A stretch of 64,000 nucleotides of DNA from assembly GCA_905147135.1 (NCBI GenBank), contig LR990049.1, positions 19,671,428 to 19,735,427 on the forward strand, written 5' to 3'. The DNA comes from Blastobasis lacticolella. Lineage: Eukaryota; Arthropoda; Insecta; Lepidoptera; Blastobasidae. Below are positions 17,953-20,443 of this stretch, piece by piece; position 1 is the first letter of the stretch; each line of letters opens with the position of its first letter. Both the position numbers and the translations under genes were made by a program. Under the pieces are notes generated by a model, which worked only from the letters and a program-made list of their open reading frames with translations, had not been told where the DNA came from and searched no databases.

Positions 17953-18047
17953 ATGAATTATAAGCTTAAAGTCACGATTCCGGCGGTGGTGGTATGCGGT
18001 GGAGCTGTTCTTGCATATTACCTCATGAGGCGGTTCGTTGATTTTGT
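17953..18047 (+). CDS. Arginine kinase alternative first exon 1b (membrane-anchor N-terminus)
   Basis: ATG at 17953 opens MNYKLKVTIPAVVVCGGAVL and continues AYYLMRR. That is two lysines, then about 18 mostly hydrophobic residues, then two arginines, the layout of an N-terminal signal anchor. Two donors keep phase 2 and so join in frame to the exon at 18486: GT at 18033 (CG|GTTCGT) and GT at 18048 (GT|GTAGTT). The second gives a 36-residue extension. The short hydrophobic span with positive flanks resembles mitochondrial outer-membrane or ER signal anchors, and which one is unknown. The frame stops at 18051 if unspliced, so it needs splicing. No transcript evidence is available. Confidence 0.55.
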
Positions 18048-18498
18048 GTAGTTGCGTAATGCTGATATATCCAGTGATAACATTTCTATTTCTTTAATTC
18101 GTTAGATTTCTATACAACTGACCATAATGGCGTTTGTAAAACATAAAATAAAATAATTAAAAGTCGATCTGTCTGATTAGGTGTTCACCGGAAAATCTCG
18201 ATTCAGGATTCAATGGGTACGTCACTAAGAAGTTTAAAAAAAACTGACGTAAGGAAAACTGATATTCTTTCAAAATCCGTTGGCCGCGACTTTGTTTGTT
18301 CAGAATTTTGAAATCGGTTTTCGGAATTTTAGTTACTGAGAGAGTTACTTTGTTTATAATTTACGAAAATGTGTACTCGAGCGACATGTGCGGCGTTACG
18401 AGCGTTAGATTATTTCGTTATATTGCTGCATTAGTTTAATTTTACCAAACGAGAAATTTAAAGTGTCGTTTCACTTGGTTTGCAGAAAAGCCGCAGCA

Positions 18499-20443
18499 AT
18501 GGTGGACGCCGCAACCATGGAGAAGCTCGAAGCTGGCTTCAGCAAGCTGTCCGGCTCCGACTCCAAGTCGCTGCTGAAGAAGTACCTCACCAAGGAGGTC
18601 TTTGAATCCCTGAAGAACAAGAAGACTTCTTTTGGCTCCACACTTCTGGATTGCATTCAGTCTGGTCAGTCATTATTTTATATATTCTATAAATAGGTGC
18701 TTACGGAAAGAAGTTACGTCATGCAAAAAAAAATTTATTTAGTTTCAATTTAAGTAGGTACCTAATGTACTATGTAGATGTTACATAGGTATTCAGGTAC
18801 TTATCATTTTTGTTACATTTATGGTAGGTATGTTAACAGGTCAACCACATTCATCTATTGAAGAGCTGACACACTTAGCAACTCTACCTGTACCTGTTAT
18901 GTGTATTATTCATTACATAGGTAACTAGAGTAGATAGATGTGGCCCAATATAATTAATAACCACTCATTTGTCCTTTTTTTATATCAGACGACCTAGGTC
19001 ATTGAAGTAGGTCACACTTTACAATGCACTGTTGGCATAAATTGCATATGATTGGATGAACTTTGGTCGATGGGTAATGGAGCTTCAATTTATTTTATTT
19101 CTCTATGTACATGGCTTTTGTAGACTCGAAAGCATGTGAAATAAATAAAAAGTTATCAAGAGTTCCAAAATAAATTAATAGTCATAATGAATATTTAGGT
19201 CTTTCTATGGTTATGAAAAGAAATTTAAAAATTAATACAAATTATTTGAAATTTATGAATTATTTGAATTATCGATATTGATAGATAAGTAATTTCACAG
19301 TACAGTGATACTTTATCACTTATGTAGTGATAACTTATCAGAACACTTAGATTAGGTAGCCTTTTGATGGTAGAAGTCTAAGCATAATAACTGCATATTG
19401 AGGAAAAGAAAATAGTGAAATAAATTGATGTTGGAATTTGTTGAGCTGACTGATAAGGGCAGGCGGGCTGATGATGAATGAAGCCTAATCAGAAGACAAC
19501 CACATATGATGTTTAACTAAAAAAATAATTTTCATTTTCAGGTGTTGAGAACCCGGACTCTGGTGTCGGAATCTACGCCCCGGACGCTGAGGCATACTCC
19601 GTGTTCTCTGAGCTCTTCGACCCCATCATCGAGGACTACCACACTGGCTTCAAGAAGACCGACAAGCACCCGCCCAAGAACTGGGGTGATGTCGAGACCC
19701 TCGGCAACCTGGACCCGGCCGGCGAGTTCGTGGTGTCGACCCGCGTGCGCTGCGGCCGCTCCATGGAGGGCTACCCCTTCAACCCGTGCCTTACCGAGGC
19801 CCAATACAAGGAGATGGAGGACAAGGTCTCCTCCACCCTCTCCGGGCTCGAGGGCGAGCTCAAGGGCACCTTCTACCCCCTCACCGGGATGTCCAAGGAG
19901 ACCCAGCAGCAGCTGATCGACGACCACTTCCTCTTCAAGGAGGGCGACAGGTTCCTGCAGGCGGCCAACGCCTGCCGCTTCTGGCCCACCGGCCGCGGCA
20001 TCTACCACAACGAGAACAAAACCTTCCTCGTCTGGTGCAACGAGGAGGACCACCTCCGCTTGATCTCGATGCAGATGGGCGGTGACCTGAAGCAGGTGTA
20101 CAAGAGGCTGGTGAATGCCGTGAACGACATCGAGAAGAGGATTCCGTTCTCGCACCACGACAGGCTGGGCTTCCTGACGTTCTGCCCGACCAACCTGGGC
20201 ACGACGGTGCGCGCGTCGGTGCACATCAAGCTGCCGAAGCTGGCCGCGGACAAGGCCAAGCTGGAGGAGGTGGCGTCCAAGTACCACCTGCAGGTGCGCG
20301 GCACCCGCGGCGAGCACACCGAGGCCGAGGGCGGCGTCTACGACATCTCCAACAAGCGCCGCATGGGACTCACCGAGTACGACGCCGTCAAGGAGATGTA
20401 CGACGGCATCGCGGAACTCATCAAGATCGAGAAGACCCTGTAA
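18499..20443 (+). CDS. Argk: Arginine kinase (ATP:guanidino phosphotransferase), common CDS
   Basis: Catalyses reversible phosphate transfer between ATP and arginine, buffering ATP in muscle and other high-demand cells. Exon 18486-18664 (acceptor TTTGCAG, donor G|GTCAGT) and exon 19542-20443 join to 355 codons, the usual insect length. The N-terminal phosphagen-kinase domain is about residues 10-90 and the catalytic domain about 115-350. Visible are the substrate-loop region SGVGIYAPD (62-70), STRVR arginines 123 and 125, the NEED motif (222-225) with the catalytic glutamate, and the signature CPTNLGT with reactive Cys270. Nothing is broken. MVDAATMEKL is the standard cytosolic start. The frame is open upstream through the acceptor, so first exons 1a and 1b can extend it. 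Codons in the large exon are strongly GC3-biased, typical of a highly expressed gene, and this creates long false antisense frames. Confidence 0.97.

Follow-up and report, generated by a model that had tools for sequence, protein, structure and literature searches.

In vertebrates, the cytosolic and mitochondrial creatine kinases are encoded by separate genes, and the existence of true mitochondrial arginine kinases in arthropods is described as controversial (both statements from PMC7603314). The same paper reports that the Tribolium enzyme TcAK1 is located in the cytoplasm including the mitochondria, and cites both a mitochondria-associated arginine kinase activity in the midgut of Manduca (Chamberlin 1997) and the view that the Drosophila arginine kinases are cytoplasmic only. 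According to PMC13215054, exon 1 of Drosophila ArgK1 RA/RE (MFALWYLTFAVDEIRK) is enough to direct a fluorophore to mitochondria, so that there is a precedent for the mitochondrial placement of arginine kinase through an alternative first exon. The leader discussed here, which is found at the arginine kinase locus of the moth Blastobasis lacticolella and is referred to as leader 2 (L2), is different from the known one.

The window, i.e., the whole stretch of DNA that was analyzed, spans 64 kb and harbors the arginine kinase gene on its + strand. The common part of the gene is composed of a coding exon at 18486..18664, which is preceded by the acceptor AG at 18484..18485 (ttgcag) and contains the canonical start ATG at 18499, and a second coding exon at 19542..20443, which encodes the kinase body to the stop. 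The spliced product is a full-length member of the insect arginine kinases (ATP:guanido phosphotransferases); its residues 32-385 match solved arginine kinases, including 4bg4 and 5zhq, and a domain scan run on the Pieris rapae homologue (P0001, see below) identified PF02807 and PF00217. A scan of 14000-24000 against Rfam yielded no matches at the gathering score. The product of the next recognized gene downstream (23454-23977, + strand; two exons, joined by eye) is a small protein that has a histone fold (PF00808, CBFD_NFYB_HMF, E 2.2e-07) and an acidic tail.

L2 is located at 17953..18032 on the + strand and encodes MNYKLKVTIPAVVVCGGAVLAYYLMR plus two bases, a leader of the signal-anchor type that ends at the donor GCG/GTTCGT at 18033. 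The open frame that starts at ATG 17953 (MNYKLKVTIPAVVVCGGAVLAYYLMRRFVDFV-stop) lies on the same strand as the common kinase exons, and the fourth codon 5' of this ATG is an in-frame TAA. Lysines at residues 4 and 6 are followed by an uncharged segment of 19 residues (residues 7-25) with a mean Kyte-Doolittle (KD) value of 1.96, and then by the arginines R26 and R27, of which the latter spans the splice junction; K28 is contributed by the common exon. An earlier sequence-only reading had proposed an exon at 17953 with two lysines, a hydrophobic run and two arginines, which was borne out, and had assigned to it two in-phase donors. Both GT 18033 and GT 18048 are indeed phase 2, the frame remains open from either of them into 18486-18664 and 19542-20443, and either yields the full-length kinase; GT 18046, in phase 0, yields no full-length kinase. 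However, use of donor 18048 (TGT/GTAGTT), which is needed for the candidate extension RFVDFV (18033..18047, + strand), found no outside support: these residues are missing in the Pieris rapae isoform (...YLIRRKAAAM). Compared with the donor consensus, donor 18048 deviates by a T at both -1 and +5, and donor 18033 is not a strong match.

The presence of two independent leaders at one locus, both in the same phase into one acceptor and both membrane-directing, had been regarded as hard to explain by chance, an argument that turned out to be weak. Among 3000 order-1 Markov versions of 16276-18485 that were searched for a phase-2 ATG leader with a hydrophobic 19-mer, 861 contained at least one such leader at KD>=1.6; at KD>=1.9 (L2 reaches 1.96) the number was 341, and 177 when K or R was also demanded among the last four residues. 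The real 16276-18485 stretch contains two further such ATGs besides that of L2 (17497 and 17536), and of the entries listed when the whole window was scanned for such leaders, 13 of 15 (+ strand) and 16 of 16 (- strand) were other than L2. Because in-phase hydrophobic leaders are common both in the simulations and in the window, the argument from chance was dropped in favor of one from conservation: taken by its sequence alone, L2 hardly exceeds chance, and it is conservation that supplies the evidence.

A protein search scored over the first 45 residues, a part that includes some common-exon sequence, returned among 13 candidates one protein at E<=10, the arginine kinase isoform X2 of Pieris rapae (P0001, a database gene model; E 1.3e-14). 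This isoform displays the same leader, junction and enzyme as the L2 product. Its leader, MNYKIKVTIPIVVCGGAVLAYYLIRR, is identical to L2 in 23 of 27 columns, and the differences are three substitutions of one hydrophobic residue for another (L/I, V/I and M/I) and one missing alanine, by which the Pieris leader is one residue shorter; K4, K6, R26 and R27 are all kept. The junction, RR/KAAAM, is the join expected from donor 18033. When the leader only was aligned, the Pieris sequence scored 116 against L2, to be compared with best scores away from L2 of 34 on the + strand and 37 on the - strand, and a top score of 39 against 60 simulations of 1-18485. The kinase bodies of P0001 and the window product are identical at 333 of 355 positions; they differ at 22, and therefore the genomes compared are not near-identical, and conservation of the leader (23/27) is almost as strict as that of the enzyme. 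The earlier claim of a second coding first exon that carries a membrane-anchor leader in phase is supported by this conservation in another lepidopteran. Matches to DNA of lepidopteran relatives were not found in the viral contig and genome contig collections. The AlphaFold model of P0001, for which the leader was present in 1 of 25 input sequences, has a pLDDT of 33-46 in the leader (blocks of ten) and a helix at 16-24 only; at this low confidence it does not help with the leader.

The L2 segment has Wimley-White means of 0.12 (interface) and 0.20 (octanol), and the highest 19-residue KD value in the kinase proper is 0.83. The N-terminus of human TOM20 yields similar Wimley-White values (0.27 and 0.21). 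With donor 18033, three basic residues (RRK) immediately follow the segment, while with donor 18048 the flank would be RRFVDFVK, in which three basic residues are spread and one acidic residue is found among them. In PMC4010795, a Wimley-White value <0.4 and at least three basic residues in the short C-terminal flank are said to typify mitochondrial and chloroplast signal-anchored proteins, a statistical rule (>85% and >89%) derived from Arabidopsis proteins; the scale behind the rule may be either of the two computed here. As in signal-anchored proteins of the outer membrane, the hydrophobicity of L2 is moderate (<0.4) and, with donor 18033, its flank holds at least three basic residues. Because the Wimley-White value is below 0.4 and RRK follows right after the segment, comparison with these criteria favors, of the two targets suggested by the earlier reading, the mitochondrial outer membrane over the endoplasmic reticulum (ER) for the predicted anchor.

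These data suggest that L2 is a real lepidopteran first coding exon that gives rise to a membrane-tethered arginine kinase, and we consider it probable that the site of tethering is the mitochondrial outer membrane, with the enzyme facing the cytosol. Splicing of donor 18033 to acceptor 18485 would yield an enzyme of 386 residues whose N-terminal signal anchor is not cleaved; in this product, a short N-terminal stretch would be followed by a single helix of moderate hydrophobicity, RRK and the complete kinase. The helix would be inserted in the mitochondrial outer membrane and the kinase would be held on the cytosolic side, where it could use ATP exiting the mitochondria to form phosphoarginine and thereby start the phosphagen shuttle. 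Use of the exon in Blastobasis lacticolella is suggested by the Pieris isoform, and we also infer membrane insertion, the preference for mitochondria over the ER and the physiological role. That the exon is real but its anchor serves as a signal anchor for the ER or the plasma membrane, or as a cleaved signal peptide, such that the kinase would reside beside ion pumps, appears unlikely, although an N-terminus with one hydrophobic segment flanked by positive charge suits ER insertion and the KD value of 1.96 is not low; the Wimley-White value and the position of RRK (judged by PMC4010795), as well as the known insect precedent, which is mitochondrial, point to mitochondria instead.

Whichever membrane is the target, L2 is very likely a coding exon. 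The same chance frequency of in-phase hydrophobic leaders, together with the weak donor at 18033 and the status of the Pieris entry as a gene model from a database, would be compatible with a transcribed but minor or noisy 5' exon, whose frame is incidental and whose protein is rare or never made, but conservation to Pieris at the amino-acid level, with charges and junction kept, would not be expected of untranslated sequence and makes this interpretation improbable. That the hydrophobic frame at 17953 is a coincidence and not an exon at all would draw on the chance rate alone, and is very hard to reconcile with the presence of this leader on an arginine kinase of Pieris rapae. The reading we prefer, i.e., a coding exon that tethers arginine kinase to the mitochondrial outer membrane, makes the conserved anchor exon a concrete and cheaply testable candidate for a mitochondrial arginine kinase in Lepidoptera.

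L2 is one of several leaders at this locus. The first feature in the series, at 16225..16275 on the + strand (5' end uncertain; donor AAG/GTAAGC), is a probable first exon of the canonical isoform, which we take to be untranslated; its open frame, ...VDSDGCTSAR, is phase 2 too, with DSDGCTSAR read at 16250, and is resembled by VDSDGCTSVR in the gene model P0040 (Tuta) and by DSDGCPSAR in P0008 (Parnassius). Its donor is the most consensus-like one of the locus. Leader 1 (L1; 16785..16843, + strand) encodes MGGCATKENKENKPAEETDG, ends at the phase-2 donor CGG/GTGCGT and starts with MG, presumably a myristoylation-type motif; L2 starts with MN, i.e., it does not have the glycine at position 2 of an N-myristoylated leader. 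Like L2, L1 is an alternative first exon that enters the same acceptor in the same phase and is probably membrane-directing, but lipid attachment, if the motif is what we assume, would replace the transmembrane helix. L1-type leaders are present in P0002 (Maniola) and P0003 (Bombyx). Leader 3 (L3; 18369..18403, + strand) encodes MCTRATCAALRA, has the phase-2 donor AGC/GTTAGA at 18404 and is matched by the leader of a Bombyx isoform (P0004), MCTRATCAALKA. It is nested in the intron between L2 and the common exon, and the resulting L3 intron would comprise 82 bases. Hence, where two leaders had been noted to enter one acceptor in the same phase, the shared acceptor and phase were confirmed but the count was too low: judged from the sequence, at least three coding leaders can join one acceptor in one phase.

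The distribution of these leaders was followed in two wider protein searches, of which 120 of 573 and 120 of 350 matches were listed (union 140). Among these 140 listed proteins, 42 have an MF.LWY start (the Drosophila type) in their first 60 residues, 31 have MGGC within their first 200 residues, one (Bombyx P0004) has the MCTRATCAALKA leader and one carries L2, counts that are not species counts, as the database is clustered at 90% and hides members. The MGGC leaders, the type to which L1 belongs, occur in listed proteins of moths or butterflies, beetles, mosquitoes, bees and a stick insect. Comparison of P0011 and P0046 with P0025 showed that in Anopheles an insert, CVSNSMVFLS(S)R, precedes the common part in A. 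culicifacies and A. aquasalis and is missing in A. bellator, as if the MGGC exon had two donors in one phase there too. The first 24 residues of Lutzomyia isoform X4 (P0050), with the leader MRILRKTFITFGRQLTHTYAKNLW, are basic and devoid of acidic residues; by eye, this leader looks like a cleavable mitochondrial presequence.

The Drosophila-type exon itself was not found in the 64-kb window by pattern and profile search of all six frames. The best profile score in the window was -0.7, to be compared with 38.2-59.5 for the training sequences; with a profile made without the beetle exons, the best window score was -2.5, and five beetle-type exons scored 6.1-18.1. A counterpart could be too diverged or lie beyond the window. 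L2 does not start with MF[ATGV]LWY, and its alignment score of 11 against a mosquito exon of this type lends no support to homology with the MF.LWY exon. Among the listed MF.LWY carriers, 19 of 42 have a species name, and all of these are flies, mosquitoes, midges or beetles. This start is missing in all seven listed proteins that bear lepidopteran names (P0001-P0004, P0008, P0040 and P0132), which is weak evidence of absence because they are cluster representatives. It is conceivable, as a tentative proposal, that the MF.LWY exon seen in dipteran and beetle proteins was lost from, or never present in, Lepidoptera, and that a new transmembrane signal anchor arose there in the same gene, i.e., that exon turnover led to convergent re-targeting of one arginine kinase gene; if true, this exon turnover would identify the molecule behind the mitochondria-associated arginine kinase of moth midgut.

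Among the proteins listed, P0041 (leader MAASPGPKCRKCFTAFYCAFGAYFVLLVVL...) also displays a signal-anchor-like segment (KD 2.21) at its N-terminus, ahead of the common kinase, with a leader sequence unrelated to that of L2; the alignment score of 17 does not support homology of the two. P0041 is mosquito-like (its body is identical to that of Topomyia P0028 at 342 of 355 positions), the anchor-like leader is found in residues 1-46 and its cluster has 48 members. This leader may represent an anchor exon that arose independently in Diptera.

A search of open-licence papers, judged mostly from titles and abstract openings, found no description of L2. The isoform itself is already present in public databases; as far as this search extended, its leader is undescribed in print. 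In its layout, the predicted L2 product resembles signal-anchored proteins of the Tom20/Tom70 type, in which one moderately hydrophobic N-terminal segment is followed by a basic stretch and then by the functional domain; the likeness is one of layout, homology is not claimed, and the location of the L2 product is a prediction. A close described system is Drosophila ArgK1 RA/RE, where, as for L2, a member of this gene family has an alternative first exon that puts an N-terminal leader before the common kinase. The in-frame joining to the common kinase is seen also for L2, both in its reading frame and at the P0001 junction. In contrast to L2, the Drosophila exon peptide comprises 16 residues, two of them acidic, with a mean KD value of 0.57 and no 19-residue anchor, and its mitochondrial targeting was demonstrated with a reporter, while that of L2 is predicted. 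Insects would thereby place one phosphagen kinase at membranes by means of different, unrelated first exons.
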